Shown here: in pieces, positions 3,475 through 23,672 of the stretch | Numbering within the stretch: the stretch's first letter is position 1 | How the letters are laid out: the number at the start of each line of letters is the position of its first letter | Made by a program: the position numbers and the translations under genes | Virus record (IMG/VR): IMGVR_UViG_3300049005_000019 | Span: 1 to 36,282 of that record | Source: a virus | DNA length: 36,282 bases | Direction: 5' to 3' (one strand) | Notes under the pieces: model-generated | The model's database searches: none | What the model was told of the DNA's origin: nothing | Seen by the model: only the letters and a program-made list of their open reading frames with translations

Positions 3475-3487
3475 GTTGACGCTCACT
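3475..3487 (+). promoter_or_regulatory. Divergent promoter with degenerate operator copy
   Basis: GTTGACGCTCACT matches the genome-wide GTTGAC-N2-TCAAC palindrome with one substitution in the right arm. For the plus-strand gene it gives TTGACG (3476-3481) and TAAAGT (3501-3506), spacing 19 bp, longer than ideal. For the endolysin on the minus strand, TAGCGT (3456-3461) is a candidate -10. The copy lies in the 57-bp gap between divergent genes. Confidence 0.5.
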
Positions 3488-3504
3488 TATCTCCGGCGCG
3501 TAAA

Positions 3505-3747
3505 GTGGCTGAAGTGGATTGGTCAGTGTTGCCCGTCACCGAAGTCGCCACCGCATCATGCGTCTACCCGGTGCACGACCTGGACCCTGCCCACTACTAC
3601 CCGACTGGTGCGACGAAACCGTCTTCCGGCCCGATCCATGTGCAGCGCCTGGTCGATGGTTCACTGTTCGTGCACGACGGACGACACCGTCTCATCCGGG
3701 CAATCCTCGCCCATCAGGCCACGATCGAGGCCCGCGTCTTCACTTGA
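3505..3747 (+). CDS. ParB/sulfiredoxin-like domain protein, antisense within late operon
   Basis: An 80-residue protein with the ParB/sulfiredoxin nuclease-like pattern: a hydrophobic strand with VHDLDPAHY (residues 23-31), GPIHVQRLVDG (42-52), and the hallmark DGRHRLIRAI (58-67) followed by IEARVF. In larger proteins this fold binds nucleotides and acts in partitioning, nuclease or kinase roles. Here only the core domain is present and there is no HTH or partner ParA. It is transcribed against the surrounding virion genes, and its last 8 bp overlap the 3' end of the MuF gene. With -10 TAAAGT at 3501-3506, the GTG at 3514 (7 nt later) would be a leaderless start, so the first three residues are uncertain. 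Confidence 0.72.
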   Translation: MAEVDWSVLPVTEVATASCVYPVHDLDPAHYYPTGATKPSSGPIHVQRLVDGSLFVHDGRHRLIRAILAHQATIEARVFT

Positions 3748-4663
3748 CGGTCAGCGTCGGCCCACCTGCCGGCACGTCTCGGCCGAACGGGAACTTGCCG
3801 GCCTTCACGGCGCGTCGGGCGTACTCCTTCACCGACTTCGGGGCGATCGGGTCGCGGTCCAGTAGGCGTGAAGCCGCACGGACCCGAGCTGCATTCGACT
3901 CGGAGGGAAGCGCGAAACCGCGCAGAATCGACCGCTGAGCCTCGCGCTGGAGGGCTTCCGCGTATGACGCATCGCCGAGCACGGCGAGGCGGCATCGGCA
4001 GTGGGCGTGAAGCGGAGGCTGGGAGACGATCGGCTGTGATGCGGGAGGTGTCGCGTACAGGTCGGCGGCCGGGAAGAAGTCACCCGCCTGCTCGACGACA
4101 TGGCCGGCGAGGGCGAGGCAGTAGACGCACGCATCACGCTCTGCCTCCCATACCATCGGCGACTTGACGGCCTCCCCGACGGTCAGCGAAGCGGCGTTGG
4201 AGGAGGCGTTGATCTGCGTCTCGATCCTTGCTTGCACCGTGTTCGCAGCAGCGAAGACGGGCGACAGCGCCTCTTCGGCTTTCGCCCCGACGGCGAGGAG
4301 GCCGAGCGCTGACGTCTTCGCTGAGGTGACCCGGGCGTCTAGGCCGGTCAGGGGTGCGACGAGGGTGTCGTGCGGGCCGGAGTCGAGGCGCATCTTCGCG
4401 TCCCCGACCGCGTTGTCGGTGACGTCGGGGAGGATCTGAGCGGACCCGATCGCCCAGTCGCCGCCCATCTGGTACGCCTCGAGCACGCCTGCCTTCGCTG
4501 CGGCTTCGATCTGCGGGATGGCGAGGCGGGCCAGCTTCGCCCCGATGCCGGGGGCTCCGGAGGCGAGCATGGAACGCAACTCGTCGACCGCTTTCAGGAA
4601 GTCGCCGGCCGCATCCTTCAGCACCCGCGCCTCGAGGGCCAGCAGGTCGTCCTCGAAGGTCAT
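3740..4663 (-). CDS. Minor head protein, SPP1 gp7/MuF-like
   Basis: A 307-residue minor capsid protein, usually present in a few copies near the portal. The N-terminal half is helical and Ala-rich. The diagnostic part is WEAERDACVYCLALAG (about residues 172-187) and PPLHAHCRCRLAV (about 217-229), the paired Cys-x2-Cys and H-x-HCRC motif of MuF domains. The C-terminus is basic. Order after portal is as expected. The upstream 129 nt is non-coding and no good ribosome-binding site is seen directly before the ATG. Confidence 0.87.
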   Translation of the reverse strand: MTFEDDLLALEARVLKDAAGDFLKAVDELRSMLASGAPGIGAKLARLAIPQIEAAAKAGVLEAYQMGGDWAIGSAQILPDVTDNAVGDAKMRLDSGPHDTLVAPLTGLDARVTSAKTSALGLLAVGAKAEEALSPVFAAANTVQARIETQINASSNAASLTVGEAVKSPMVWEAERDACVYCLALAGHVVEQAGDFFPAADLYATPPASQPIVSQPPLHAHCRCRLAVLGDASYAEALQREAQRSILRGFALPSESNAARVRAASRLLDRDPIAPKSVKEYARRAVKAGKFPFGRDVPAGGPTLTVK

Positions 4664-4792
4664 GCAGTGTCCAGTCCCGCAGCAGGGGATCCGAGTCGAA
4701 CGGACTTGGCTCTGCTTTCATGTGCGCACATGGCCGCGGGGGTTGAGGGGAATCGCACCCTCATGGCCGTGCCCCACTGGACAGATCCCACC
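4664..4792. other. Non-coding spacer with perfect palindrome and tRNA T-arm-like sequence
   Basis: The 129-nt gap between portal and MuF genes holds a 14-bp perfect palindrome, CATGTGCGCACATG (4719-4732). On the minus strand there is a T-arm-like stretch, GTCCG-TTCGACT-CGGAT, followed by CCCCTGC (about 4682-4706). I could not complete a tRNA cloverleaf on either strand, so no tRNA is called. Confidence 0.4.
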
Positions 4793-6463
4793 TTACCGAC
4801 CGCCGAACGGCGTGGGCGCATCCCCGACCGCATCGGTGACGCGCTCGAGCTGGTGCGCCGGCAGGGGTTCGGCCGCCACGATGTCACCAAAGTAGGGGCG
4901 AAACGCGCGCTTGATCGCCTCATCGGGCACCGAGCCCATGTTCTTCGCCATCCCCAGGTCGCGAAGTGCTGTGGACAACTGGATGAGCATGTTCGGCGAC
5001 AGCGGCATGGCCAAGCCGTCCGTCTCATCGATGGGCATGAAGTCGTCCACCTGGGCGGACGTGTAGCCGGCCTCCAGCAGCGCCTGACGGGGCGGAATGC
5101 CGTTGGCGATCTTCAACGCCACCAAGCTGATGCCCTCGTTGTCGGTGGCCGTCTCCGACGGGGCCCAGACGGCTTCCACCTTCTTGCCCTCATAACCGAG
5201 CGCGGCGAGGGCGTAGGCGCCGATGGCCGCCCAGGTGGTGCCGAACTGGCCTTTCACCTTCCCGGCGTGCTTCGTGATAGGGCCGTCGGCACGACGGCGA
5301 GCCTCACCGGACGGCTGATCCCCCGACCCGTCCAGGTCGAACTCATAGAGGGGCGTGCGGGACAGTGTTGCGCCGGCCCGGATTTGGAACGTCAGCGGAT
5401 CCAGGAACCCTTTCGGGTCGGCGGGGGCGAACGAGCCGACACCTTTCACCCCGTTCAGCATCCACATGCCGCCCGGGTCGGAGTTCAGCTTCGAACGGCC
5501 CTGCTCGTTACGGTGCGGACCGGTGACCGTCGCATCGCCCCACTCGGTACCGTCGTCATTGAAGTCGTCATCGATGTCGTCGTCGATCTCCGCGTTCGGG
5601 TCCATCGTCGCGTACCGCTGCGGGAAGCCGTAGTAGTCCATGGACGCCATCTGGGTGGCGTTGATCTTCGTGATGGCGTCCTGGGGGCCGTACATCTTCG
5701 AGTTGATGGGCAGGCCGTACGGCTTCCGGTCGGGCCGGAAGTGGAAGACGGGGAAGAGGCCGATCTCGTTCGGGATCGGGTCCGGCTGCCCGTCGTCGTC
5801 CAGGTCGAGCAGGTACTTCTTCACGTCGAACCCGTCGCCGGCGTCCTCACCGTCCTGAGTGGCGAACTCCCATGTCTCGTCGTCGTAGTAGACCAGCGCC
5901 TCCCACTCGCCCTTGCCCTCACCTTTGATCATCTGCACGGCGAAGTCGGGAATCCGCGAGTTGGACCGCTGGTAGCAGATGACGGTCGAGTGCGGGTGCT
6001 TCGGGGTCAACTCGATCGTGCCGACACCGGTACCGGATTCCCCGCCACCGTCCTCCTCGTCGTCGTCCTGCTCGTCCTGATCCTTGATGTATTCGGCGAC
6101 GACGTAGTAATCACCCAGATAAGCGGCGTGCAGGTGGATGTCGTCGGCGTCGTCGTCGAGACTGTTCGGCTCCCACAGTCGGAGACGGAGCTGCTCATCG
6201 ACGGCCGAGTCCTGGGTGGTCAGCGACATCAGGTCGACGCGGTCCATCAGAGCGTCGCAAGGAACGGAGGCGTAGTTCAGCCGGAAGGCGTCACCGTAGC
6301 GGTCCAGCAGCGTCCTCAGCTTCGGGTGGGTGATGATCTCCCGACGCTCACCCTGGTAGTACTCCTCCCGCTTCCGATACTCGGCCTGCTTGTCGGCGAT
6401 CGCCTTCAACCCCCGGCCCAGGTCCTTCAGGACGTCAGCAGGCTTGTCGGGGGCGAGGCTCAT
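4793..6463 (-). CDS. Portal protein, SPP1 gp6-like
   Basis: A 556-residue portal subunit forming the dodecameric DNA channel at the capsid vertex. Features: a charged helical N-terminus (DVLKDLGRGLKAIADKQ), the segment with YYVVAEY near residue 120, an acidic insertion DQDEQDDDEEDGGGES (about 128-143), the conserved PVFHFRPDR near residue 240, and a central GPQDAITKINATQMASMDYYG (about 256-275) typical of the clip/stem region. A second acidic loop follows (DDDIDDDFNDDG). The ATG at 6463 overlaps the methyltransferase stop (ATGA); longer in-frame extensions would intrude into that gene and are not used. Confidence 0.88.
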   Translation of the reverse strand: MSLAPDKPADVLKDLGRGLKAIADKQAEYRKREEYYQGERREIITHPKLRTLLDRYGDAFRLNYASVPCDALMDRVDLMSLTTQDSAVDEQLRLRLWEPNSLDDDADDIHLHAAYLGDYYVVAEYIKDQDEQDDDEEDGGGESGTGVGTIELTPKHPHSTVICYQRSNSRIPDFAVQMIKGEGKGEWEALVYYDDETWEFATQDGEDAGDGFDVKKYLLDLDDDGQPDPIPNEIGLFPVFHFRPDRKPYGLPINSKMYGPQDAITKINATQMASMDYYGFPQRYATMDPNAEIDDDIDDDFNDDGTEWGDATVTGPHRNEQGRSKLNSDPGGMWMLNGVKGVGSFAPADPKGFLDPLTFQIRAGATLSRTPLYEFDLDGSGDQPSGEARRRADGPITKHAGKVKGQFGTTWAAIGAYALAALGYEGKKVEAVWAPSETATDNEGISLVALKIANGIPPRQALLEAGYTSAQVDDFMPIDETDGLAMPLSPNMLIQLSTALRDLGMAKNMGSVPDEAIKRAFRPYFGDIVAAEPLPAHQLERVTDAVGDAPTPFGGR

Positions 6464-7119
6464 GCTCCGATGGTAGCGGGAGGCTCGATTAGACGACCGA
6501 TCAACCCGGTACCGATGAACTGCGTGTAAATCGGAGGAATCGCCTCTGCTATCTCCCGTCGCACGTCCGTCCAGTCGATGCCCATCGCCACTTGCCATTC
6601 GGCGACGGTGCCTTTCCCGCCGCCTTCACCATGGACGGCGAGATACGGGCCGTCGAAGTAGGCGCCGTGGCGCCATCCCCGCACTCGGCCACGGTGGCGG
6701 ATGTGGGCAGGGGCCGGCATCGTCCAGCCGCCCAGCTCGAAGTAGCGGTGACGGATCACCCCGAGGCCGAACATCTCCCCGCACAAGGTCAAGTCACGTC
6801 GAACCGGTGCGCCTTGCACGTTCTCGATCACGTACGGCTTCCCGATCTGCTCCAACAAATCACGCGTCGGTTCGATCAGGCGCGGCCACTCGTTGCCGTG
6901 CACCGCCTTCAATGCCGAGTAGTCCTGACACGGAGGGGACGCGTGGACGGCGTCGAACTCATGACCGTGAGCCGCCAGGTAGGCGAGAGCGTCAGCGACG
7001 TGGTGCTCGTACGGGTAGTTCGGTTGCGGGTCGATGTCCACGCCGACCACCTCGAAGCCGGCCCTCGAGTAGCCGACCGCCGCACCGCCGGCGCAGGAGA
7101 ACAGGTCGAGGATCCTCAT
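6460..7119 (-). CDS. DNA (cytosine-5) methyltransferase
   Basis: A 219-residue enzyme transferring a methyl group from S-adenosylmethionine to C5 of cytosine in DNA. Motif I DLFSCAGGAAVGY (residues 5-17), motif IV ASPPCQDYS with the catalytic Cys64, motif VI YVIENVQG (97-103), motif VIII RHRYFEL (123-129) and a motif X-like IPPIYTQFIG (194-203) are all present, so it appears intact. It is short, leaving a small target-recognition region between motifs VIII and IX, and I cannot predict its site. No cognate restriction enzyme was seen. It sits between terminase and portal, coupled to a zinc-ribbon mini-protein upstream and the portal downstream. Protection of phage DNA from host restriction is the likely role. 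Confidence 0.88.
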   Translation of the reverse strand: MRILDLFSCAGGAAVGYSRAGFEVVGVDIDPQPNYPYEHHVADALAYLAAHGHEFDAVHASPPCQDYSALKAVHGNEWPRLIEPTRDLLEQIGKPYVIENVQGAPVRRDLTLCGEMFGLGVIRHRYFELGGWTMPAPAHIRHRGRVRGWRHGAYFDGPYLAVHGEGGGKGTVAEWQVAMGIDWTDVRREIAEAIPPIYTQFIGTGLIGRLIEPPATIGA

Positions 7120-7244
7120 CGGATCTTCACGCCTCGATCAACGACGATAACCGAGGCGTTGCACCAAATGCACAACCAAGTCTCCCACCGTTCAGCCTTG
7201 GAAACGAAAACGAGGGCCCGACCACATCGAGTACAGAAGTGCAT
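7116..7244 (-). CDS. Zinc-ribbon mini-protein, leaderless
   Basis: A 42-residue protein with two CxxC pairs: C4-x2-C7 and C25-x2-C28, the latter in WLCIWCNAS, a minimal zinc ribbon. The stop overlaps the methyltransferase ATG, so both are expected on one transcript. TATGAT (7252-7257) lies exactly 7 nt upstream of the ATG, so the mRNA would start at the start codon with no leader. The role is unknown; a nucleic-acid or protein adaptor for the methyltransferase is only a guess. Confidence 0.7.
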   Translation of the reverse strand: MHFCTRCGRALVFVSKAERWETWLCIWCNASVIVVDRGVKIR

Positions 7245-7251
7245 GGCGACT

Positions 7252-7273
7252 ATCATACTAGTTGACTGTCAAC
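7252..7273 (-). promoter_or_regulatory. Leaderless promoter with operator palindrome upstream of the Zn-ribbon/methyltransferase genes
   Basis: The perfect palindrome GTTGACTGTCAAC (7261-7273), in plus-strand context CTAGTTGAC, lies directly upstream of a minus-strand -10 (TATGAT 7252-7257, or the overlapping TAGTAT). It sits in the 33-bp gap after terL, and would switch on methyltransferase and downstream head genes independently of the terminase transcript. Confidence 0.65.
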
Positions 7274-7277
7274 ACGT

Positions 7278-8819
7278 CTAGACATAGGCGAGTTGAGTCG
7301 CCACCGGACGGCGGTGCTGGGCCTTCTTCCGGTCCAGGAAGGCGATGATGCCGGTGCCGACGGCGTCGACCAGGTCATCGTGCGGAGCTCGAGGGAAACC
7401 GACCTGCTCCGTCTCCAGGTCGGTGAGGCCATGGGCGTGGACGACGTGACCTGTCTGGTAGAGGTTGAGCACTTCGGCCGCCCTCACCTCCTTTTTCACC
7501 GTCTGGTGGATGAGGCGCAGCTTCACCGGTATGTCGTGCAGGATCGCCGGCCATACCTCCCCGCCCTGATTCGTCTCGATCAGTAGCAGGCCGATCGCCG
7601 GGTCGGCGTTCAGCATGTCCATCACCTTCCGCCGAAGGTCGGCCCCCGACAGCTTCACCCTCAGCGCCCGCTTTACCCGACACCTGCCCGTCTTCGGCGG
7701 GTTCATCCCTGGTGCGTACTCGATGACCGCCAGCCCCGTGTAGTCGGAGGACTGCTTCGTCGTCACCGCCGGGTCGATGGACAGCAGCGTGCGAGTGACT
7801 CCTTCCAGCTCGCCCCGACGGAAGTCTTCGGCCACCCAGTACGCCCCGTCGAGGCCGAGCGGGTCGTTGAGGTAGTTCTTCATGTAGGACCGGGTGTGTT
7901 CAATGCGCTCCAGGTCCTCCAGCGGCCACCTGGCAGGCCAGATCGACTCCCTGGCCCCGTCGTCCTCGGTGACGATGGGAGCGTAGTAGAACGGCTCCCA
8001 GCGGTCGTCGTCGATCCACCTGGAGCGCTCGTCATCCCGGGCCACCTGGCCTCGAGCGACCCGGACGAGCTGGTGCAGGATCGAATCCGCCCGGGTGACG
8101 GTGCCGACGAAGACGACCCGTGCCCGGTCGTTCAGCGGCAGCACCGTGTCCTGAAGGGTGGCGAGCCGCTTCGCCGTCAGGTCGGCCGAATAGCGTTCCT
8201 CCGCCGGCTCGACGTCGTCCAGGATGAGCAGATCGGGTCGCAGGTTCCCGATCTTCAAACCGAGGGCCTGAGACTCCATTCCACGGGCGGCGAAGACGAA
8301 ACCGGACTTCGCTCGGTACAGGTCGGCCCGGTCCGCGTCGGTGATGCCCCGACGAGTGACCAGGGGTGTGCACAGGTCGGGGAAGTCGTCGCGGAGACGT
8401 TCGTTCGTTCGCAGCTCGGTGAGGAACGTCGCCAGGTGCGTCTCCGCCAACTTGGAGGAGTCGGCGAACGCGGCGACGAACTTCGTGTGACCGTGCGCGG
8501 CCGCCCAGAGCGGCACGATGAGGAACCACCACGTCGACTTCCCCATCTCGCGGGGGCCGACGAACGCCCGCCGGAACGGTTCCTGACGGATCAGCCGGCG
8601 ACCCTTCCGCGCCCAGTCGACGTGTACAGGCGACAGTGTCACCTCGTTGTGCGTCTGCTCGGAGGCCAGGTGGTGCCAGAGGTAGGTGAGGGCGAATGCC
8701 ATCGGGTCGGCGTGGGTGACGGTGCGACGGATCTCCGGCACGTCCAACGCCTCCAACTCGCCGGAGTAGAGGCCGAGCAGGTGGACGGCCGGGTCGACGA
8801 TCGTCGGGGGGAGGTTCAT
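7278..8819 (-). CDS. terL: Terminase large subunit
   Basis: A 513-residue packaging motor. The ATPase domain has Walker A GPREMGKST (88-96), Walker B LLILDDVE (197-204) and a coupling motif VFVGTVT (236-242). The C-terminal RNase H-fold nuclease has acidic residues in LSIDPAV (D349), LIETNQGG (E415) and PHDDLVDAVG (D481/D482/D485). All key residues are present. It pumps DNA into the prohead and cuts unit genomes. The candidate small subunit lies 4.5 kb upstream in the same direction, not adjacent. A GC-rich hairpin is 22 nt before the ATG. Confidence 0.93.
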   Translation of the reverse strand: MNLPPTIVDPAVHLLGLYSGELEALDVPEIRRTVTHADPMAFALTYLWHHLASEQTHNEVTLSPVHVDWARKGRRLIRQEPFRRAFVGPREMGKSTWWFLIVPLWAAAHGHTKFVAAFADSSKLAETHLATFLTELRTNERLRDDFPDLCTPLVTRRGITDADRADLYRAKSGFVFAARGMESQALGLKIGNLRPDLLILDDVEPAEERYSADLTAKRLATLQDTVLPLNDRARVVFVGTVTRADSILHQLVRVARGQVARDDERSRWIDDDRWEPFYYAPIVTEDDGARESIWPARWPLEDLERIEHTRSYMKNYLNDPLGLDGAYWVAEDFRRGELEGVTRTLLSIDPAVTTKQSSDYTGLAVIEYAPGMNPPKTGRCRVKRALRVKLSGADLRRKVMDMLNADPAIGLLLIETNQGGEVWPAILHDIPVKLRLIHQTVKKEVRAAEVLNLYQTGHVVHAHGLTDLETEQVGFPRAPHDDLVDAVGTGIIAFLDRKKAQHRRPVATQLAYV

Positions 8820-8841
8820 GGCCTCAGGTTAAGCATTGGAG

Positions 8842-8877
8842 GGGCCGCCCTGAGAACTGGAAGCTCTTGGGCGGCCC
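8842..8877. other. GC-rich hairpin upstream of terL
   Basis: GGGCCGCCC (8842-8850) pairs perfectly with GGGCGGCCC (8869-8877), with a short inner GAG/CTC pairing in the 18-nt loop. If the TTGACA-like box at 8917-8922 (minus strand) is a promoter, this hairpin would sit at the 5' end of the terL mRNA. It could also be a weak terminator; no U-tract is seen. Confidence 0.55.
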
Positions 8878-8895
8878 ACTACTTGTTCGCTGACA

Positions 8896-9090
8896 ATGAG
8901 AAACCTCTGTCGTCGATGTCAATCGACTCGAACTGAGACCAGCTCAGCGGCGTTCATATGGCGAACGCCCTACCTCTCGCGACCAAGCGACCTCAGGCTA
9001 GCCGATGTCGGCGACATGCGACACACTGGAGGCGTCGAGCACCCCCCAGCGTCCGACAACGGCAGAGGGCCCAGGATCTCTTCGGGATAG
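8896..9090 (+). CDS. Doubtful small plus-strand ORF ending inside a terminator
   Basis: A 64-codon frame starting MRNLCRRCQSTR, with one CxxC pair (residues 5 and 8) and two His near residues 42 and 48. Its TAG lies at the edge of the terminator hairpin, as with the two other convergent gene ends in this genome, which is the main argument for it. Against it: third-codon positions are much less GC-biased than in neighbouring genes, there is no ribosome-binding site and no clear -10 before the ATG. Confidence 0.22.
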   Translation: MRNLCRRCQSTRTETSSAAFIWRTPYLSRPSDLRLADVGDMRHTGGVEHPPASDNGRGPRISSG

Positions 9091-9103
9091 AGATCCTGGG
9101 CCC
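9067..9103. terminator. Strong intrinsic terminator hairpin
   Basis: A perfect 14-bp stem: GGGCCCAGGATCTC (9067-9080), 9-nt loop, GAGATCCTGGGCCC (9090-9103), followed on the plus strand by TTGCTTGT. It would end the minus-strand transcript of the mini-protein operon before terL, and any plus-strand transcript from the other side. Confidence 0.75.
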
Positions 9104-9550: not shown

Positions 9551-9804
9551 GACGCCACCGCCGTCAAGTGCCCGCCGCCGATGACGTCGAGGTGCTCGAG
9601 GATGTGGGCGAAGGCGATCATGCGAAGGCAGTAGACGCACACCGACGTGTCCTCGACGGCCACTGTCTGGGCTGCCGCCTCGATGGACAGGAACGTGGTC
9701 CCGTCGATCTTCACCGGAGCCGAGTCGCAGAGCGGAAGCCACAGGTCGGCCGACGAGGTGGCGAGGTGCGCCTTCCGTCGTTTCGGGCGGACGAGGGCGA
9801 TCAT
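9547..9804 (-). CDS. Small hypothetical protein with CxxC
   Basis: An 85-residue protein starting MIALVRPKRRKAHLA. It has a Cys at about 36 and VCVYCLRMIAFAHIL near residues 56-70, a single CxxC embedded in a hydrophobic helix, and ends HLTAVAS. It is coupled at both ends by ATGA overlaps to its neighbours. No family recognised. Confidence 0.62.
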   Translation of the reverse strand: MIALVRPKRRKAHLATSSADLWLPLCDSAPVKIDGTTFLSIEAAAQTVAVEDTSVCVYCLRMIAFAHILEHLDVIGGGHLTAVAS

Positions 9805-9980
9805 GCCGGCACGTCCATCATCAGCAGCTCGAAGCGGAGCGTCTCGGCAATCTGGCCGGCCTCGGAGTGGTGTTCGAGGATGGCGGCGGCGTTCGTTTTC
9901 GGGTGCAGCTCCAGGTCGACGAGACGTTCGACGTGCTCGACCAGCTCACGTGCGGCGGCGAGGATCTCGATCGGTGTCAT
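9801..9980 (-). CDS. Small helical hypothetical protein, first gene of operon
   Basis: A 59-residue, mostly helical acidic protein (MTPIEILAAARELVEHVERLV). I chose the ATG at 9978-9980 over the GTG two codons upstream because CATGCT (9987-9992) lies 6 nt before it, the -10 to start spacing seen at the other leaderless promoters of this genome. It is the first gene of a four-gene operon ending at 9213. Confidence 0.65.
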   Translation of the reverse strand: MTPIEILAAARELVEHVERLVDLELHPKTNAAAILEHHSEAGQIAETLRFELLMMDVPA

Positions 9981-9986
9981 AACCAC

Positions 9987-10009
9987 AGCATGACAGGTTG
10001 AGCCTCAAC
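9987..10009 (-). promoter_or_regulatory. Leaderless promoter with operator-like palindrome
   Basis: The perfect inverted repeat GTTGAG-C-CTCAAC (9997-10009; minus strand TAGTTGAGGCTCAAC) shares the outer arms of the GTTGAC-N-GTCAAC operator, with a changed centre. On the minus strand it is followed by CATGCT (9987-9992) and, after 6 nt, the ATG at 9980. This is the same layout as the promoters at 7252 and 17626. Confidence 0.55.
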
Positions 10010-10059
10010 TACCTAGTGGGCGGGTGTCCCCAGATCGAGCGTCAGTTACCCGGCCAGGG

Positions 10060-14290: not shown

Positions 14291-14467
14291 CCAATGACAG
14301 CAGTGACGACCATTTATGCCGTTCCCCCTAGGGCATGTCGAGCTGGGATGGGGATGGGTTTAGTGGGCGCGTGCGCGGAAATATAGGGAAGTGACCCGTT
14401 TGGGGTGTATGCTCACTCGGTATACCCTAGGAGCTAGGGCATAAACGGTCGTCACTGCTGTCATTGG
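14291..14467. repeat. 30-bp inverted repeat flanking a G-rich core: candidate replication origin or divergent control region
   Basis: The left arm (14291-14320, beginning CCAATGACAGCAGTGACG) is the reverse complement of the right arm (14438-14467) at 29 of 30 positions. Weaker matching continues inward, with a shared CCTAGGG. The 117-bp interior contains a G-rich stretch (14345-14367), an A/T-richer patch (GGAAATATAGGG) and a TATACC box. An extra CCAATGAC lies directly outside the left arm. It separates the minus-strand fibre block from the plus-strand primase. Origins often carry such repeats next to the primase gene, but divergent promoter duplication would look similar. Confidence 0.7.
14345..14367 (+). 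other. G-quadruplex motif inside the inverted repeat
   Basis: Four runs of three or more G on the plus strand: GGG (14345-14347), GGGG (14350-14353), GGG (14356-14358) and GGG (14365-14367), with loops of 2, 2 and 6 nt. This meets the usual G3+N1-7 rule for a folded quadruplex. Confidence 0.65.
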
Positions 14468-16671: not shown

Positions 16672-16852
16672 GTTGTGGGTGGCTTGGAACGACGAGATGG
16701 CGGAAGGGTATTACGACATCGTCGGTCCTTTCACAGGCAGCGAGGAGGCGATTCAGTTCGCTGAATCGCGTGGGGACGGTTGGACGGCTGGGGCGTTGAC
16801 CAATCCGATGAGATGGAAGCCGTTGCTCTATCCCTGGGAAGTCAAAAAGTGA
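16664..16852 (+). CDS. Small hypothetical protein
   Basis: A 62-residue, Trp-rich protein (MSELWVAWNDEMAEGYYDIVG) ending YPWEVKK. Its ATG lies inside the last codons of the helicase and its TGA overlaps the next start. The sequence VGPFTGSEEAIQFAES looks like a short alpha/beta fold. Unknown function. Confidence 0.68.
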   Translation: MSELWVAWNDEMAEGYYDIVGPFTGSEEAIQFAESRGDGWTAGALTNPMRWKPLLYPWEVKK

Positions 16853-17124
16853 GCTCCACCGTCACCGTCACGCAGCTCCCGTACGCCTACAGCGTGCGAG
16901 GCCGTCTGACGCCGCACGTGGTGAGCGTGTGCCGGCTGTACGTGCAGGGGTACTCGATGGGTCAGGCGGCCGTGCTGCTGGGTATCACGACGCATTCGGC
17001 GCAGGACGCGATCAAGCGGTGCCGAGCGGCTCTGGGTCGTCGAGGTCATCCGGTCAGCAACGCGATCATGCTCAGGAAGGCCCTCCGCGCCGAAGGCTAC
17101 CTGGACGACATCGAGCCGATCTGA
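16849..17124 (+). CDS. Small HTH DNA-binding protein
   Basis: A 91-residue protein with a helix-turn-helix similar to sigma-70 region 4 or LuxR-type domains: VSVCRLYVQGYSMGQAAVLL (26-45) and GITTHSAQDAIKRCRAALG (46-63). It probably binds DNA as a transcription or replication factor. GTG start overlaps the previous TGA. It is the last gene before a strong bidirectional terminator. Confidence 0.72.
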   Translation: MSSTVTVTQLPYAYSVRGRLTPHVVSVCRLYVQGYSMGQAAVLLGITTHSAQDAIKRCRAALGRRGHPVSNAIMLRKALRAEGYLDDIEPI

Positions 17125-17161: not shown

Positions 17162-17392
17162 GGGTGTGGTCGATTCTGCCGGAAAGACCTCGTGCCAATC
17201 CGTCAACAGTTCTGCGGCACTACGCAGCACCCATTCATGAGTCGACTTCCTGACGCAGCGGTACTTCTTCGCCCGAGAGTCGTAGGACGAGACCCGCACG
17301 ACGAACAATTCGTACGGATCAACCGCTCCGTTTAGCTCAAAGCTACGGCCTAGTAGTGGATAGACGGCGAGCATGTCTGCATTCCAGGCCAT
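17153..17392 (-). CDS. Hypothetical protein downstream of the RHH gene
   Basis: A 79-residue protein (MAWNADMLAVYPLLGRSFEL) with alternating strands and helices (YELFVVRVSSYDSRAKKYRCV, SAAELLTDWHEVF). Its ATG overlaps the TGA of the ribbon-helix-helix gene (TGATG), so the two are a coupled pair. Such pairing is seen both in autoregulated repressor operons and toxin-antitoxin modules, but the sequence matches no toxin family I recognise. Confidence 0.65.
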   Translation of the reverse strand: MAWNADMLAVYPLLGRSFELNGAVDPYELFVVRVSSYDSRAKKYRCVRKSTHEWVLRSAAELLTDWHEVFPAESTTPGP

Positions 17393-17619
17393 CACTCGCT
17401 CCCTGTCTTCGGTCCGAGGTCGATCTTCTCGACGCCGACGGGGTCGGTGGTGAGGACGTCTCCGTAGCCGGCTTTGCGGATCCCGGCGTGCAGGAAGGAG
17501 CGCAGCACCTCGGTCTTGTGCAGCTCCTCCCGTTCGGCGACGTCTTCGACGAGTCGGCCGACGTCGGTGGAGACCATGAGGACGAGCTGGACGGGGTACT
17601 TGGAACTTCGGATCGCCAT
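17392..17619 (-). CDS. Ribbon-helix-helix DNA-binding protein, candidate phage repressor
   Basis: A 75-residue protein with the RHH (Arc/CopG) pattern: beta strand PVQLVLMVSTD (9-19), helix A GRLVEDVAEREEL (21-33) and helix B HKTEVLRSFLHAGIRKA (34-50), plus a short tail. RHH dimers bind palindromic or repeated operators through the paired strands. The ATG at 17619 is 6 nt from TAGTAT (17626-17631), a leaderless start. A GTTGAC palindrome at 17632-17644 controls both this gene and the divergent early operon, the classic layout of an autoregulated repressor. That it binds the genome-wide palindromes is inference. Confidence 0.72.
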   Translation of the reverse strand: MAIRSSKYPVQLVLMVSTDVGRLVEDVAEREELHKTEVLRSFLHAGIRKAGYGDVLTTDPVGVEKIDLGPKTGSE

Positions 17620-17625
17620 GTCCAG

Positions 17626-17659
17626 ATACTAGTTGACAATCAACGGATCAGGGTAGAGT
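17626..17659. promoter_or_regulatory. Divergent promoters sharing a central operator palindrome
   Basis: GTTGACAATCAAC (17632-17644) forms the -35 (TTGACA, 17633-17638) of a plus-strand promoter with TAGAGT (17654-17659) at 15 bp. On the minus strand it abuts TAGTAT (17626-17631), which is 6 nt from the ATG of the RHH gene. A protein bound here would block both. Confidence 0.65.
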
Positions 17660-17662
17660 GTC

Positions 17663-17720
17663 GGTGGTGGCGAGCGGTCCGTTCTTCCCCGTGCCGGGGT
17701 CCAGTCCGCTCGCCACCACC
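17663..17720 (+). promoter_or_regulatory. Long stem-loop at the 5' end of the early operon mRNA
   Basis: GGTGGTGGCGAGCGG (17663-17677) pairs perfectly with CCGCTCGCCACCACC (17706-17720): 15 bp, with an inner CCCCG/CGGGG hairpin (17687-17691/17695-17699) in the 28-nt loop. With -10 at 17654-17659 the transcript would start within the left arm, leaving a hairpin at the extreme 5' end, 24 nt before the first ATG. mRNA stabilisation or attenuation is likely; no U-tract follows. Confidence 0.65.
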
Positions 17721-17744
17721 TCACCGAGAAGGAGCCGCCGCCCC

Positions 17745-17978
17745 ATGTCAGATCAGTTGCCCCCGGAGGGCGAGCCCGTACGGCTTGCTCCTCCGTTCGA
17801 GAAGATCACTGTGCAGTACCCGTTCCACTGGGCACAGCCGAATCGTGTGCACGTCTTCGACGAGAAGGACGGCAACGGCACGGTCTATGGCCCCGAATGG
17901 GCTCGAGCCCTCGCTGAGGGCATCCTGACCGCGATGGACGGCCCCGGCCACTGGACGCCCGAGGGTGAGGCGATCTGA
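17745..17978 (+). CDS. Small hypothetical protein, first gene of the early operon
   Basis: A 77-residue protein (MSDQLPPEGEPVRLAPPFEK) with a beta-rich middle (ITVQYPFHWAQPNRVHVF) and a helix (WARALAEGILTAMD). GAAGGAG lies about 11 nt before the ATG. An in-frame upstream GTG (17658) would start inside the -10 and hairpin and is not used. Stop overlaps the next ATG. No family recognised. Confidence 0.7.
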   Translation: MSDQLPPEGEPVRLAPPFEKITVQYPFHWAQPNRVHVFDEKDGNGTVYGPEWARALAEGILTAMDGPGHWTPEGEAI

Positions 17979-18109
17979 TGACCGACCCTCGAGATTACGG
18001 CCCCACCCCGACGGAGGCGATCCAGCTCGACGTCGACCTGCTGGAGTCGCAGTTCCGCATCGCCCGCATGATGTCGTACGGCCCCCTGAAGGACGAGGCC
18101 GGCGAATGA
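17978..18109 (+). CDS. Mini-protein
   Basis: A 43-residue protein (MTDPRDYGPTPTEAIQLDVD) with one amphipathic helix (DLLESQFRIARMMSY). It is coupled by stop-start overlaps on both sides (TGATG upstream, ATGA downstream), which supports it as real despite its size. Unknown function. Confidence 0.6.
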   Translation: MTDPRDYGPTPTEAIQLDVDLLESQFRIARMMSYGPLKDEAGE

Positions 18110-18543
18110 GCGACTTCGATCCCGGCGAGGGGTGGCGCTCCATCGGGAAGAACTTGATCCCTGAGGGCGCCGAGTCCATCGTGCATGCGACCGGTCCAAC
18201 TGAATGGACGGCCTGGGTTCGTGAGGACCCGAAGCCTCCGCTCCCAACCGCCCGCTACACGGTCATCCTGGTCAACTGGAAGGACGAGTCGGACACTTCT
18301 CCTGTCCTGATCCGTCTCGGGTCTCCTACCCGCCCTCAGTGGCTGACGGACGCCGGTGAGATCGTCGGGAACGCCGACTGGGTGGAACGTCACATCACCG
18401 GTTTCGAGATCCTGTCCGAGCCACGCGCCGTGACCGCTAAGGCCCTGCTCGAAGAGGTCCGCGAGTATCTGCCACTCGGCTTCGACGACCCCTCTCAGCA
18501 CCAACTCGACCTGCTGGCGGATGAGTTCGGGGTCGACGCATGA
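18106..18543 (+). CDS. Hypothetical protein
   Basis: A 145-residue protein. The N-terminal 95 residues are beta-rich (TEWTAWVRED, RYTVILVNWKDESDTSPVL), followed by a helical C-terminus (AKALLEEVREYLP, QHQLDLLADEFGVDA). Codon use matches neighbours. Not recognised. Confidence 0.72.
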   Translation: MSDFDPGEGWRSIGKNLIPEGAESIVHATGPTEWTAWVREDPKPPLPTARYTVILVNWKDESDTSPVLIRLGSPTRPQWLTDAGEIVGNADWVERHITGFEILSEPRAVTAKALLEEVREYLPLGFDDPSQHQLDLLADEFGVDA

Positions 18544-18884
18544 GCAGCACCCGAGACCTCCTGGACGCCCTCCGTCGTGCCGAGGTCGCTGAGGCGAAGC
18601 TGGCGCGCAATCTCTCACAGACGCAGCAGATTCGAGGTCGTTTTCGAGGTATGACAACCCATGATGCACTTACGTTTCTTATGCGAGAGCATAATTGGAC
18701 CGATGATGCCAACATGGATAACCTTGCAGATGATATTCTTTCTCTATTATTACCTGCCGACAATGTTGTTTTAACAATTGAAGAAGCTAATAGAGCAGCT
18801 CAATGGTTCGATGAGTTGACTGATGTTGTTCCATTTTCAGGGGCAGATCTGAGCCTGTCAGATAAGTTGCAGGGTATTCAATGA
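18540..18884 (+). CDS. Chimeric-composition hypothetical protein
   Basis: A 114-residue helical protein (MSSTRDLLDALRRAEVAEAK). The first 110 bp have the GC-rich codon use of the phage, but from about 18650 to 18865 the DNA becomes strikingly A/T-rich (TTTTAACAATTGAAGAAGC). The protein has DALTFLMREHNW and IEEANRAAQWFDEL helices. The change of composition inside one frame suggests a recent recombination join. Function unknown. Confidence 0.7.
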   Translation: MSSTRDLLDALRRAEVAEAKLARNLSQTQQIRGRFRGMTTHDALTFLMREHNWTDDANMDNLADDILSLLLPADNVVLTIEEANRAAQWFDELTDVVPFSGADLSLSDKLQGIQ

Positions 18885-19240
18885 GACGCCCTGACCAGCC
18901 GACCGGTGAGGTGCCAGAGTTGAACCTGACCCGTCGCCTGAACCCGATCACTCACCCGACGGAGATCATCCGGCGGGTGGAGACGCGGATGGCGGAACGG
19001 CAGAGGCCGGACCGCCTGTTGGACTTCCTGCTGAAAGGTGCCGTCTTCCTGATCCCGGTGGGGACTTTCTTCGCCGTCCTGGCGGCCTTGAACGCCCGTC
19101 TGGGCTACCTGATCCTGTTCATGGGCATCATCGCCGCCGGCTGCTGCATGGCGACCTTGGAGACGCTCCTGGACCCCGACCGCCCCGAGCTGGACGAGCG
19201 GCTCTTGTCGGCGCTGAGGAAGGGGTTCCGACATGACTAA
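18881..19240 (+). CDS. Two-span membrane protein
   Basis: A 119-residue protein. Residues 1-50 are basic and soluble (RRLNPITHPTEIIRRVETRM). Two hydrophobic spans follow, about 53-71 (GAVFLIPVGTFFAVLAAL) and 75-94 (LGYLILFMGIIAAGCCMA). The tail is acidic then basic. ATGA overlap upstream. It could be a membrane anchor or superinfection-type protein; no family recognised. Confidence 0.7.
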   Translation: MRRPDQPTGEVPELNLTRRLNPITHPTEIIRRVETRMAERQRPDRLLDFLLKGAVFLIPVGTFFAVLAALNARLGYLILFMGIIAAGCCMATLETLLDPDRPELDERLLSALRKGFRHD

Positions 19241-19475
19241 CTTAGATCGGGTTTCACTCATCGAATTGCTCATGGATAAGCACCTTGCGGTTGATGAGGT
19301 TCTTGACGTTCTGGAGGCGTGCGAGATTGAAGTATCACAAAAAGCCACACATTGTGGCTACATCGATTGCCCCGGCATAGCTGAACCAATTCGAGAGCAA
19401 GAACACGGACCTGAACATCCAACATGCAAAATCCTTCAAGAATTCTGGCTAGCAGTCGAGAGCGGTATTCTTTAA
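19233..19475 (+). CDS. Hypothetical protein with low-GC codon use
   Basis: An 80-residue protein (MTNLDRVSLIELLMDKHLAV) with three Cys and His (HCGYIDCPG, HPTC) in the second half, which may bind a metal. The whole frame is clearly more A/T-rich than its flanks, like the 3' part of the gene at 18540, so it was probably acquired from another source. It ends TAA, uncommon among the stops here. Confidence 0.68.
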   Translation: MTNLDRVSLIELLMDKHLAVDEVLDVLEACEIEVSQKATHCGYIDCPGIAEPIREQEHGPEHPTCKILQEFWLAVESGIL

Positions 19476-19628
19476 ATGACCGGCTCGTCGTGGTGGATGT
19501 TCGCGGAGATGAGCGGGCAGGATCGGATGAAGCAGTTCGTGCGGACCCGTCTGCTCCACCTGAAGACGATCCTCTGGTACCGCCCCGTCTACGGCTTCCT
19601 GAAGCGCTGGACATCGAGGCCGTGGTGA
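19476..19628 (+). CDS. Small basic aromatic protein
   Basis: A 50-residue protein (MTGSSWWMFAEMSGQDRMKQ) rich in Arg, Lys and Trp (FVRTRLLHLKTILWYRPVYG), starting immediately after the previous TAA and overlapping the next gene's GTG. Amphipathic; membrane-surface or nucleic-acid association is possible but unproven. Confidence 0.58.
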   Translation: MTGSSWWMFAEMSGQDRMKQFVRTRLLHLKTILWYRPVYGFLKRWTSRPW

Positions 19629-19753
19629 AACTGAAGTGCCTCCTGTGCGGCCATCAATGGCACATGGAGAGATGGAACTTCGGCGAGCCCCGACACGATC
19701 GTCTCTACATCGTCGTCGCCGTCTGCTCCTCCTGCGGGAAGGTGCGCTCATGA
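19625..19753 (+). CDS. Zinc-ribbon mini-protein
   Basis: A 42-residue protein, MKLKCLLCGHQWHMERW..., with C5-x2-C8 and VCSSCGK near the C-terminus: a clean two-knuckle zinc ribbon. It has the same length and plan as the mini-protein at 7116. GTGA and ATGA overlaps link it to both neighbours. Confidence 0.66.
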   Translation: MKLKCLLCGHQWHMERWNFGEPRHDRLYIVVAVCSSCGKVRS

Positions 19754-20397
19754 CTGACCATCGGGCCGATGAGCTGAAGAAAGGCGACGTCCTGTCGATC
19801 CGGGGCGACAGGTGGACGGTGGTGAAGGCGAAGGTGCACGGGAAGCACGTCCGTCTCACCATCGACGGCCGGCGGGGTTCGTTCACCGATGACGTGAAGG
19901 TCCGCACCCTCTACGATGTGATCGATGTGAAGCGGGCTGGCGAAACGGGTTCGAGTACCCGTCCTAGGTCCACGGGGACTCCCGGCCCGCTTCACTCCCC
20001 CGATGGCGCTCAGACCAAATGGGCCGAGCCGCAGGAGTCCGCCGACGCCGGCCGGGAGTGGTCGGACGTGCTGAAGCGTGAGCGGCCGATCGTCGACCAC
20101 CTCGGCGCACGCCTGGTCGGTGTCGAGGTGGAGGACGGGAAGCTCATCGTCCCTTCCGTCACCGACGCCACGATCCTCGGCCACCTGGCGACGATGCACA
20201 GCCGTCGGTTCGACGGCGTCACGCTCAACGAGGCGAAGGCCTGGGCGAGGAAGAACGACCCGGGCGGAACCTCGACGGCGGTCCAGACGATGGACGCCCT
20301 CACCCTCGAGCGTGCCCACGAACTGCACGCCCAGCTCCACGTCGACTTCATGTCCCTGGAGCGCCCACATTGGCATAGAGAGCGAGCCCCGAGATGA
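19750..20397 (+). CDS. Hypothetical protein with SH3-like N-terminus
   Basis: A 215-residue protein. Residues 1-60 (ELKKGDVLSIRGDRWTVVKA, KHVRLTIDGRRGSFTDDV) look like a small beta-barrel (SH3/KOW-like). A disordered Ser/Thr/Pro-rich linker (70-100) follows, and then an alpha/beta C-terminal part (VGVEVEDGKLIVPSV, HLATMHSRRFDGVTL). Nucleic-acid binding is a guess. Confidence 0.7.
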   Translation: MTDHRADELKKGDVLSIRGDRWTVVKAKVHGKHVRLTIDGRRGSFTDDVKVRTLYDVIDVKRAGETGSSTRPRSTGTPGPLHSPDGAQTKWAEPQESADAGREWSDVLKRERPIVDHLGARLVGVEVEDGKLIVPSVTDATILGHLATMHSRRFDGVTLNEAKAWARKNDPGGTSTAVQTMDALTLERAHELHAQLHVDFMSLERPHWHRERAPR

Positions 20398-20624
20398 GCG
20401 AACGCCGAACAACCGTCGTTGTTCCTACTCGAGATCACATTGTCACTTTGACGGGAGACCTCGATGACGACGCTGAATACTGGACTTCCATGTTCATTGA
20501 AGGTCTCGTCAAGGGCATCAAGCGAGGAGATGCGACCGTGCTCTCGGAACCCTGGACGATCAAGTACACACCTCGAGCACAAACACCGAGGAAGCAGATT
20601 CGTCTGAGAATGTTCCCCTCATGA
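20394..20624 (+). CDS. Small hypothetical protein
   Basis: A 76-residue protein (MSERRTTVVVPTRDHIVTLT) with a beta-strand N-terminus, an acidic middle (DLDDDAEYW) and a basic C-terminus (RAQTPRKQIRLRMF). Slightly less GC-rich than its neighbours. Stop-start overlaps on both sides. Unknown. Confidence 0.65.
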   Translation: MSERRTTVVVPTRDHIVTLTGDLDDDAEYWTSMFIEGLVKGIKRGDATVLSEPWTIKYTPRAQTPRKQIRLRMFPS

Positions 20625-20752
20625 GTCCTGAGCAGAAACTGCATCTGATCGACAGCGAGATCACCCGCTTCCTGGATGACGAGCGGGTGGACGAGGATCT
20701 GCGGGAGGCGGTGCATGTGGATCGGGTGCGGCGGATCCTCGAACTGACCTGA
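20621..20752 (+). CDS. Helical mini-protein
   Basis: A 43-residue charged helical protein (MSPEQKLHLIDSEITRFLDD...RVRRILELT), the last gene of the first early sub-operon, ending 13 bp before the operator at 20766. Unknown. Confidence 0.58.
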   Translation: MSPEQKLHLIDSEITRFLDDERVDEDLREAVHVDRVRRILELT

Positions 20753-20765
20753 CGGCGTGTCGCTA

Positions 20766-20794
20766 GTTGACAGTCAACGTCGTACCGGTAGTGT
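20766..20794 (+). promoter_or_regulatory. Promoter with perfect operator palindrome for the nuclease operon
   Basis: GTTGACAGTCAAC (20766-20778), again in CTAGTTGAC context, supplies TTGACA (20767-20772). TAGTGT (20789-20794) follows at 16 bp. Start would be near 20801, giving a leader of about 50 nt before the ATG at 20852. Confidence 0.72.
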
Positions 20795-20851
20795 TCCTCC
20801 TGTCAGCCAGCACGGGTTGACGCCTCCGCCGAACTGAAGGACACCTCCCCC

Positions 20852-21079
20852 ATGACCACCTCCCCGATCACCCTTCCGGCGCACCGGAACCGCATCCTGA
20901 CGCGGAAGCAGGAGCGGAAGATGCTGGCGGCGGCGCTCCGTCGTCGCGACCGTGCCCGCTTCATCAACGACGTCACCTACCGGTACCGTCACGCGATGAC
21001 GATTCTCGCCGCCACCGGAGCGGTCTCCGCAGGCGCCGTCGCCGGCCACGTCCTCCTCACCGTCGCCGGGGTGCGGTGA
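20852..21079 (+). CDS. Small membrane protein with basic N-terminus
   Basis: A 75-residue protein. The first 48 residues are very basic (HRNRILTRKQERKMLAAALR), and residues 49-72 form one hydrophobic span (AMTILAATGAVSAGAVAGHVLL). GAAGGA lies upstream of the ATG. First gene of the operon with the nuclease. Unknown. Confidence 0.68.
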   Translation: MTTSPITLPAHRNRILTRKQERKMLAAALRRRDRARFINDVTYRYRHAMTILAATGAVSAGAVAGHVLLTVAGVR

Positions 21080-21306
21080 TGAAGATCATCAAGGGCTTCC
21101 GCATCCCCGAGCCCTCTGAGCGAGCCATCCGGTGGCCCAGCATCGGCGGAGACGACCCGAGGATCGCCGTGTGGATGAAGAATCCCGCTGCCTGGTCGGT
21201 GAACGGGTTCGATCGAGCTTGGGGCGACCCCTTCGAGCTGATCAGCCACTTCGGCAACGACTGGTTTGCCGTCAGCCTCGACGCCGTTCCCGAGCCCCCG
21301 AAGTGA
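21079..21306 (+). CDS. Small hypothetical protein
   Basis: A 75-residue protein (MKIIKGFRIPEPSERAIRWP) rich in Trp and Pro with a compact alpha/beta look (RIAVWMKNPAAWSVNGF, FAVSLDAVPEPPK). ATG overlaps the previous stop; a GTG one codon earlier is possible. Unknown. Confidence 0.65.
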   Translation: MKIIKGFRIPEPSERAIRWPSIGGDDPRIAVWMKNPAAWSVNGFDRAWGDPFELISHFGNDWFAVSLDAVPEPPK

Positions 21307-21452
21307 CCGGCCTCGAGGTCATCGGCTGGGCGGGCATTGCTGCCGCCTCGATCGTGATCGTGTCGGTGGGCGCTGCGTTCGCCCGCATCTTCTGGCAGGC
21401 AGCCGACTCCAAGTCTGGCTCCTCCGTCGTCTTCAAGGGGAAAAACTCGTGA
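21303..21452 (+). CDS. Small single-span membrane protein
   Basis: A 49-residue protein with one hydrophobic helix (GWAGIAAASIVIVSVGAAF, about 8-26) and a hydrophilic Ser/Lys tail. GTGA overlaps on both sides. Unknown. Confidence 0.62.
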   Translation: MTGLEVIGWAGIAAASIVIVSVGAAFARIFWQAADSKSGSSVVFKGKNS

Positions 21453-22942
21453 ACAAGAAGGCCAAGAAGGCTAAGAAGGTAGGTAAGAAGGCCGCGAAGG
21501 CGGGCACCTTTACCCCTTCCCCGGCGTCTGGGATCACCGCCCCGGCCGAAGCCGCCGAGACGCTGCTGCCGCTGGATCGAGACGCGAACCTTCGGAAGAT
21601 CGATAGCCACGGCTACCCCGTGTTCGCACCTGACGGGGTGACACCGTACCCGACGGGTGAGGCGATGGCACGTCAGATGAAGCAGGGCGCCGAGGTGGCT
21701 CGCCAGTGGGCGCACCGGGCGAAGCAGGACTACCACCTGGAGCCTCCGGCCCAGGTGGACACCGAGCCGGAGCAGTCGGAGGCGACGTCGGGGAAGGATG
21801 TTCCTCCGGCTGCTCCTGAAGGTGATGGAGTGGACAAGCTGATGATCTTCGCTCGACGCCTCGCGTTGACCGAAGGTCCGGCTCCGCTCGTGAACAAAAA
21901 CACCTTCATCGAGAGTTTGATCGAACAGGGACCGGTGATTGCAGCCCAGCTCGACAAGCCTCAGTTCGACGGCATCGGCCTGGAGCCTGCCGCCGACCCA
22001 GTGCTTCAGAACGGGAACGGCCAGGCGATGATCCACTACCTGGACCCGGTGACGGGTCAGGAGAAGGTGAAGGGCTACACCCGCGTTACCACCTACATCG
22101 ACGGCCTCGACGACAAAACGGTCCTCACGAAGTGGAAGATGCGCACCCTGCTCGAAGGGGCAGCAATCGAGGAGGACATCGAGCAGCCCTATGAAGACAA
22201 GTCGATCGCCAAGGCAACCCGTGCCGTCAAGCGTCTCGACGCAGCCTTGGCCGACATCGACCAGCGGGAGAAGGTGGACGGGGAGCTTCTGGAGCTCCGC
22301 CGGCAGGAGCTGTTGAAGGAGCACCGCGACCTGCTGGAGGGCATCGCCGACGACCTGATGGAGCTGGGCGGGGCGCACGAGAAGGCGATCAAGGGCACGA
22401 ACCTGCACCGCCTCACCGAACTGGTCGACAACGGCCACCCACTGCCGGCGGACACGAACGCCTCCGACCGCCGTGACGTGGAGGCCTACTCGGCGAAGAT
22501 GGCCGAACTGGGTCTCGAGGTGCTCTGGACCGAGAGGCGGGTAGTCCTGGACGACATCCAGGTCTCCGGGACGATGGACCGCGCCTATCTCTACAAGCCG
22601 AAGGACGGCAAACGCCGCATCCGAGTGGTCGGCGACCTGAAGACCGGCTCCGTCTCCTGGGGCTTCGGAAAGATCGGTCAGCAGTTGCGGATCTACGCCC
22701 AACGCCTTGGCTACGACTGGACGAAGCCGCTGGAGCGCGAACCGCTTCGCCTGTCGAAAGCCGTAGGCCTGCTGATCCACCTCCCGCAGGGCGAGGGCGT
22801 CTGCAACGTTTACGAGGTCGACCTGGAGCTGGCCGGCCAGGGCGTCGACCTGTCCCGGCAGGTCCGGGAGTGGCGCAACACGCAGAAGCGACTCTACGAC
22901 TTGAAGTCTCCGCTGACTGGGCCCGAAGAAGCGAAGGCGTGA
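21449..22942 (+). CDS. Cas4/RecB-like PD-(D/E)XK nuclease
   Basis: A 497-residue protein. The first 20 residues are a poly-lysine tail (MNKKAKKAKKVGKKAAKAG), followed by about 200 residues of unclear fold. The C-terminal nuclease domain has SGTMDRAYL (373-381, D377), VVGDLKTG with D396 and K398, and QQLRIYAQ (about 414), the motifs II, III and QxxxY of Cas4/RecB-family exonucleases. It probably processes DNA ends for recombination or replication. AAGGGG lies 8 nt before the GTG. Its partner may be the ssDNA-binding-like protein at 23702. Confidence 0.82.
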   Translation: MNKKAKKAKKVGKKAAKAGTFTPSPASGITAPAEAAETLLPLDRDANLRKIDSHGYPVFAPDGVTPYPTGEAMARQMKQGAEVARQWAHRAKQDYHLEPPAQVDTEPEQSEATSGKDVPPAAPEGDGVDKLMIFARRLALTEGPAPLVNKNTFIESLIEQGPVIAAQLDKPQFDGIGLEPAADPVLQNGNGQAMIHYLDPVTGQEKVKGYTRVTTYIDGLDDKTVLTKWKMRTLLEGAAIEEDIEQPYEDKSIAKATRAVKRLDAALADIDQREKVDGELLELRRQELLKEHRDLLEGIADDLMELGGAHEKAIKGTNLHRLTELVDNGHPLPADTNASDRRDVEAYSAKMAELGLEVLWTERRVVLDDIQVSGTMDRAYLYKPKDGKRRIRVVGDLKTGSVSWGFGKIGQQLRIYAQRLGYDWTKPLEREPLRLSKAVGLLIHLPQGEGVCNVYEVDLELAGQGVDLSRQVREWRNTQKRLYDLKSPLTGPEEAKA

Positions 22943-23154
22943 GCACAGTCTGTCACGCTGGCGTAACCCGTGAAGGTGAGTACGTCGACTGCGGCAAGCC
23001 TGCGGTGGGCTTCTACCTCGACATCACGAGCGAGGAGGAGGGCTGGTCTCCTTACCCCGTCTGCGTGTTCCATCTCCAGAAGGATGGAGCGGTAGCGATC
23101 GACGACCCCGAGTACAAGAAGTCGTTGGACTCGTATCGCCAGGTCTGGGAATGA
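22939..23154 (+). CDS. Small zinc-finger-like protein
   Basis: A 71-residue protein (MSTVCHAGVTREGEYVDCGK). Cys5, Cys18 and VCVFH near residues 45-49 form a C...C...CxxH arrangement common in small actinophage proteins. GTGA overlap with the nuclease. Unknown role. Confidence 0.66.
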   Translation: MSTVCHAGVTREGEYVDCGKPAVGFYLDITSEEEGWSPYPVCVFHLQKDGAVAIDDPEYKKSLDSYRQVWE

Positions 23155-23207
23155 GTGCCAATGGGCTGGGAGACTGCCTCCGACCTCCCCTCGACGCTAC
23201 GGAGTAG
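23151..23207 (+). CDS. Possible 18-codon coupling ORF
   Basis: ATG overlaps the previous TGA and the frame (MSANGLGDCLRPPLDATE) ends at TAG 2 nt before the next ATG, with CGGAG inside its last codons serving the next gene. It could be a translated linker that couples expression, or chance. Confidence 0.25.
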   Translation: MSANGLGDCLRPPLDATE

Positions 23208-23209
23208 CC

Positions 23210-23647
23210 ATGCCTCTGACCACGAACGATGTCCGCGCGATCCTTCAGGATGCGATCATTCAGGGGAAGATGGCGCCGGACGACGATGTCGCCGCCGCCC
23301 TCGCCACCACCCTGTCGGCGGCGATCACCCCGAACCTGAACCTGATCGTCGGCACCCAGACGGGTCTCATCCCGATCAGCTCGGTGGCCGCCCCGGTCAT
23401 GTCGATCGTGGAGGCCCTGACGGTGCGGGATGCGGTCAGCCACGTCATCGCGGACGAGTTCTCCGGCAACCTGGAGCTGGAGATCACAGCCGCCTCCGAG
23501 GCTCTGCTGAAGACCGGCTACGTGGATGTGCCGAAGGTCCTGGCCCTGGCCCGTGAGGACGACCAGACGACTGCTACGCCGGCACCGTCGACCGGCAGTC
23601 ATGCGGTGTCGGTGGCCCCTGATAGCCTCTCCTCGTTGGCTAGTTGA
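23210..23647 (+). CDS. Hypothetical helical protein
   Basis: A 145-residue protein (MPLTTNDVRAILQDAIIQGK) with alternating helices and a hydrophobic middle (NLNLIVGTQTGLIPISSV), ending in a Thr/Pro/Ser-rich tail. CGGAG lies upstream of the ATG. Its stop codon TGA lies inside the operator palindrome at 23643, so the gene and the next promoter are fused. Unknown. Confidence 0.7.
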   Translation: MPLTTNDVRAILQDAIIQGKMAPDDDVAAALATTLSAAITPNLNLIVGTQTGLIPISSVAAPVMSIVEALTVRDAVSHVIADEFSGNLELEITAASEALLKTGYVDVPKVLALAREDDQTTATPAPSTGSHAVSVAPDSLSSLAS

Positions 23648-23672
23648 CTCACAACTAGAACGCATGTAGGTT
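23643..23672 (+). promoter_or_regulatory. Promoter with operator variant overlapping a stop codon
   Basis: GTTGACTCACAAC (23643-23655) lies within the longer inverted repeat CTAGTTG...CAACTAG (23640-23646/23652-23658). TTGACT (23644-23649) and TAGGTT (23667-23672) are spaced 17 bp. The start would be near 23679, a short leader before the GTG at 23702. Confidence 0.68.

Follow-up and report, generated by a model that had tools for sequence, protein, structure and literature searches.

Arc of phage P22 and the plasmid-encoded CopG are small ribbon-helix-helix (RHH) proteins whose palindromic operator lies inside the core promoter, giving autoregulation. Among archaeal viruses, SvtR of SIRV1 and AvtR of AFV6 are RHH regulators that repress their own gene and have several sites on the viral genome, with eight potential sites, conserved in homologous genes, in the case of AvtR (PMC5569661). 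Dispersed sites are also known from actinophages. The stoperators of cluster A mycobacteriophages are asymmetric and direction-dependent and act on elongation (PMC4351075, PMC9283540), the 17-bp palindromes of cluster O mycobacteriophages are symmetric and dispersed (PMC4351075), and cluster EG Microbacterium phages carry repeated short intergenic inverted repeats of the form GATCAACC-NN-GGTTGATC (PMC7302621). For the comparable repeats of clusters O, EG and EC, the published accounts assigned no binder (PMC4351075, PMC7302621).

The DNA analysed here (the window) is a virus record of 36,282 bases, of the linear class, that belongs to a small virus of actinobacteria; its TerL shows about 50% identity to those of the Microbacterium phages OscarSo, Isperia and Wyvern and about 45-55%, for the best segment, to IMG/VR contigs. 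Dispersed palindromes are found at its promoters, and these probably serve as operators for an RHH protein that the phage itself encodes at 17392-17619 and that would act as an autoregulated repressor at core promoters. The likeness to Arc and CopG lies in a small RHH protein, both being among the nearest solved folds, whereas here a single protein appears to serve six promoter regions across the genome. With SvtR and AvtR the proposed system would share a virus-encoded RHH protein, repression of its own gene and several genomic sites, although those proteins work on archaeal viruses and promoters with a proposed oligomerisation along DNA, and the window sites are on bacterial-type core promoters. 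Cluster EG repeats are placed 14-22 bp before start codons and cluster O palindromes are mostly off promoters, about a third of them in coding regions, both unlike the window operators. No copy of the EG repeat was found near the annotated RHH gene gp13 of Hyperion (4674-4829), which does not reveal what binds the repeats. A literature search, in which few subscription journals were covered, returned no paper describing this RHH/operator system. Most likely it belongs to the known RHH-repressor type, with the same arrangement and changed words across related phages.

Table 1. Operators and associated genes in the window.
Feature	Position	Strand	Remarks
Operator 1 (weak)	3472..3490	+	Promoter of ParB-like gene; TTGACG-19-TAAAGT, 7 nt, GTG 3514
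ParB-like small accessory gene, under operator 1	3514..3747	+	Weak PHROG match, ParB-like partition protein, E 0.028
Small zinc-ribbon-like gene, under operator 2	7116..7244	-	Weak zinc-ribbon matches
Operator 2	7258..7276	-	Between terL and zinc-ribbon/methyltransferase/portal genes; minus-strand promoter
59-aa small gene, under operator 3	9801..9980	-	
Operator 3, CAGGTTGAGCCTCAACTAC	9994..10012	-	13 bp 5' of small minus-strand gene; no convincing -10
RHH protein gene (75 aa), proposed binder/autorepressor	17392..17619	-	AlphaFold2 model; orthologs in relatives
Operator 4, CTAGTTGACAATCAACGGA	17629..17647	.	Between divergent RHH and early-operon promoters
First early-operon gene, divergent from RHH gene	17745..17978	+	
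Operator 5, CTAGTTGACAGTCAACGTC	20763..20781	+	Perfect GTTGAC-N-GTCAAC core; exonuclease operon promoter; TTGACA-16-TAGTGT
First gene of operator 5 operon, leading to exonuclease	20852..21079	+	
Exonuclease gene, downstream of operator 5	21449..22942	+	PHROG 466 exonuclease, E 1e-53
Operator 6, CTAGTTG-ACTCA-CAACTAG	23640..23658	+	Perfect half-sites; promoter of 23702-24187; TTGACT-17-TAGGTT
Conserved phrog_870 gene, under operator 6	23702..24187	+	E 3.6e-24

The sequence-only reading had listed six related sites, and their sequences were confirmed at 3475, 7261, 9997, 17632, 20766 and 23643, those at 7261 and 20766 being the two perfect GTTGAC-N-GTCAAC palindromes and that at 3475 a weak copy (2 mismatches of 11). 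All six are intergenic, and operator 6 overlaps the stop codon of the open reading frame 23210-23647. When GTTGAC-N2-TCAAC was scanned with up to 2 mismatches, 27 matches were obtained against 8.9 ± 3.6 expected, a number not reached in any of 100 shuffles. As unguided repeat searches of whole genomes were swamped by codon words, the search was restricted to noncoding DNA, seeded with every noncoding 16-mer and compared with 40 resampled sequences. The operator word then came first, with 6 further noncoding matches and no coding one (P = 3.1e-7), whereas the best of the resampled controls reached 2.1e-5 and none gave more than 4 noncoding-only matches. Equal numbers of matches in coding or shuffled sequence would have argued against an operator, and the word was not present at comparable levels in either coding regions or resampled sequence.

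The half-site first proposed was slightly off, and CTAG precedes GTTGAC in only four of the six copies. The operator unit is better described as (C)TAGTTG-N5-CAACTA(G), with CTAGTTG-N5-CAACTAG as its full form; the real half-site is thus (C)TAGTTG around a 5-bp centre, and therefore CTAG does belong to the operator. The heptamer CTAGTTG itself occurs five times in 36 kb, counting both strands, always within operator sites. This symmetry bears on the simpler explanation that the sites are no more than strong -35 elements with the sequence TTGAC, belonging to promoters of the host type, and that their symmetry arose by chance. Four of the six copies do supply TTGAC to a plausible promoter, but the symmetry reaches CTAGTTG/CAACTAG, including the perfect copy at 23640, the minus-strand copies supply no -35 and, in relatives, the palindrome is found between separate -35 and -10 elements, so that we consider this explanation highly improbable.

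As shown in Table 1, the copies are associated with promoters. Operators 1, 4, 5 and 6 supply TTGAC as the -35 of plus-strand promoters, as had been suggested, followed by a TAnnnT box after 16-19 bp at operators 1, 5 and 6 and after 15 bp at the divergent operator 4, whose plus side reads TTGACA-15-TAGAGT followed after 7 nt by GTG 17667. The claim that every copy has a TAnnnT box was borne out at five sites, operator 3 having none convincingly placed; likewise, minus-strand copies abut a -10 at operators 2 and 4 but not clearly at operator 3. At operator 2, TATGAT is followed after 7 nt by ATG 7244, and on the minus side of operator 4, which is separated by 9 bp from the start codon of the RHH gene and thus places a palindrome at the gene's own promoter, TAGTAT (17626-17631) is followed after 6 nt by ATG 17619. 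The distance of 7 nt from the -10 to the start codon, found at operators 1 and 2 and on the plus side of operator 4, is as expected for leaderless mRNA, and the mRNA of the zinc-ribbon-like gene is, as judged from its sequence, likely leaderless. The same spacing was read at the RHH promoters of G003, OscarSo, FuzzBuster, Isperia and Wyvern.

The arrangement had been likened to, and set apart from, mycobacteriophage stoperators, with which it would share one phage protein acting at many dispersed sites. That the copies are themselves stoperators, bound by a repressor that halts elongation across the genome, would fit their number and dispersion in a phage genome and a seventh, weak match at 26349 between convergent genes. 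This match was, however, rejected as an operator, as it lies inside a terminator-like hairpin that accounts for it, and in cluster A the stoperators lack symmetry and are oriented with transcription (PMC4351075). As the window sites are symmetric and located on promoters of either strand, this is not considered a stoperator system, and we give that reading very little weight.

The assignment of the 17392-17619 product to the ribbon-helix-helix fold is structural and depends on a model. An AlphaFold2 monomer prediction made with nine family members contains a strand region followed by two confident helices (residues 18-31 and 35-49). The nearest PDB folds to this model were Arc, CopG, PutA and SvtR, with Arc and CopG as the top Foldseek matches, and VIA-align Z values of 4.7-5.0 to PutA, Arc, SvtR and CopG are those expected for a 50-residue domain, but not strong. 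By sequence, family-profile matches in the PDB were weak and included CopG, SeqA and ArtA, and Pfam RHH_1 matched one of the nine family members (E 0.0073); the window protein had no Pfam RHH match and no Pfam or PHROG family at significance. When the window protein was used by itself, RHH pattern scans and tblastn gave no match; relatives were instead reached via TerL.

Orthologs of the RHH gene were identified in G003, G004, G005, OscarSo, FuzzBuster and SM23, and a profile search added further contigs; among its finds were unannotated copies in Isperia (about 27840-28280) and Wyvern (about 29003-29417). In OscarSo, FuzzBuster, SM23 and the window, the gene separates the primase region from the exonuclease region and runs on the opposite strand, and in most of the relatives examined an operator-like word lies directly upstream of it. 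In the unguided noncoding search, such a word headed the ranking for G005, FuzzBuster and SM23 and was one of the leading words for G010, G011, G012 and G013; in G007 and G009, where the RHH gene is present, this search gave no clear repeated operator. The words have diverged. Six perfect copies of TAGTKG-N4-CMACTA are present in G005, GACGCGYCACTA is common to G011 and G012, and FuzzBuster and SM23, with RHH recognition strands that are near-identical, have the word type CACCTATTAGGTG in common. Around TAGTTG-type half-sites the spacing is 4 bp in G005, 5 bp in the window and 6 bp in G010, the half-sites of the latter being of the CTAGTTG type.

Although the words differ, the operator positions are conserved among relatives, and operators were present at equivalent promoters, as a phage-wide regulon would require. 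Of 7 genomes, 6 had an operator in the terL-portal interval, against an expected 1.5, and 7 of 9 had one upstream of the exonuclease, against an expected 1.7; OscarSo, Isperia and Wyvern, for which operators were selected visually among loose matches, did not enter this test. The phrog_870 ortholog of G010 likewise has an operator in front of it. Taking all genomes together, 30 of the 53 copies were on a TTGACN/TAnnnT promoter, compared with 2.8% of random noncoding positions, and a hand count that left out genomes or copies in which the operator itself supplies the -35 gave 20 of 38, the operator of relatives often being placed between separate TTGACN and TAnnnT elements.

The comparison also bears on the identity of the binder. 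A small HTH-like protein encoded at 16849-17124, close to the RHH gene and weakly matching HTH and sigma region 4 families, could bind the operators instead of the RHH protein. However, its gene is the last of the primase operon, for which the window contains no operator, the copy in this region adjoins the start of the RHH gene and not the operon of the HTH-like gene, and closely similar RHH proteins have a common operator word whereas dissimilar ones differ; thus the HTH-like protein seems an unlikely binder. The ParB-like protein (3514-3747) was dropped as a candidate, its own gene being a target and the RHH gene being the one that recurs in relatives.

We return to the RHH protein, already put forward as the binder by the sequence-only reading, as the proposed repressor. 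From the computed sites and positions, the modelled fold, synteny and recurrence at the equivalent promoters of relatives, we infer that it binds the operators, that it represses rather than activates and when it would do so. If the protein behaves as Arc and CopG do, two RHH dimers would sit side by side on the two TAGTTG half-sites. Plus-strand copies would cover the -35 and minus-strand copies would fill the spacer up to the -10; as the operator is within the core promoter, binding would block RNA polymerase. The single operator that separates the RHH gene from the divergent early operon would provide autoregulation, and the others would extend the same control to the exonuclease operon, the phrog_870 operon and three accessory genes. 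As the RHH protein builds up after infection, these promoters and its own would be held down, so that it may work as a temporal switch or as a limiter of early expression.

The plus-strand early region contains the primase, exonuclease, phrog_870 and endonuclease VII genes, with minus-strand structural genes on both flanks. Neither a tyrosine integrase (PF00589) nor a serine recombinase (PF00239) was found in the window or in 14 related records, all of which may be incomplete, whereas control genomes were positive; temporal control would therefore be a likelier role than lysogeny for the RHH/operator system. No relative was detected when genome contigs were scanned with TerL, hence there is no evidence of a prophage, and a primase scan of viral contigs did not find relatives either.

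Dispersed intergenic palindromes of an actinophage family are thus tied to a named candidate regulator, with a defined promoter set on which early control can be tested in phages that lack a lysogeny module. The natural series of RHH recognition strands and operators, in which the operator changes are unusually clear, should be useful for studying how RHH specificity evolves. More tentatively, a whole family of integrase-less actinophages might be run by one small RHH repressor, with the word and half-site spacing varying per phage while much of the controlled promoter set stays, which would amount to private control codes and, possibly, mutual exclusion.

Some further features were recorded. 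A scan of a sequence collection for CTAGTTGACNNTCAAC returned 118 stretches with 1 match each among the rows listed, which were taken as chance. The RHH stretch of Isperia overlaps annotated gene 42 on the opposite strand. Just past the plus-strand start of operator 4 and 5' of the early operon, a strong leader hairpin is predicted at 17660-17750 (MFE -48 over the 91-nt stretch). The tape measure gene holds an AT-rich stretch (30860-31300). Finally, a 52-nt inverted repeat (14291-14342 and 14416-14467; 85% complementary, 73 nt apart), possibly a cos site or an origin, lies between the terminase side and the primase, a position that matches the genome ends of OscarSo.
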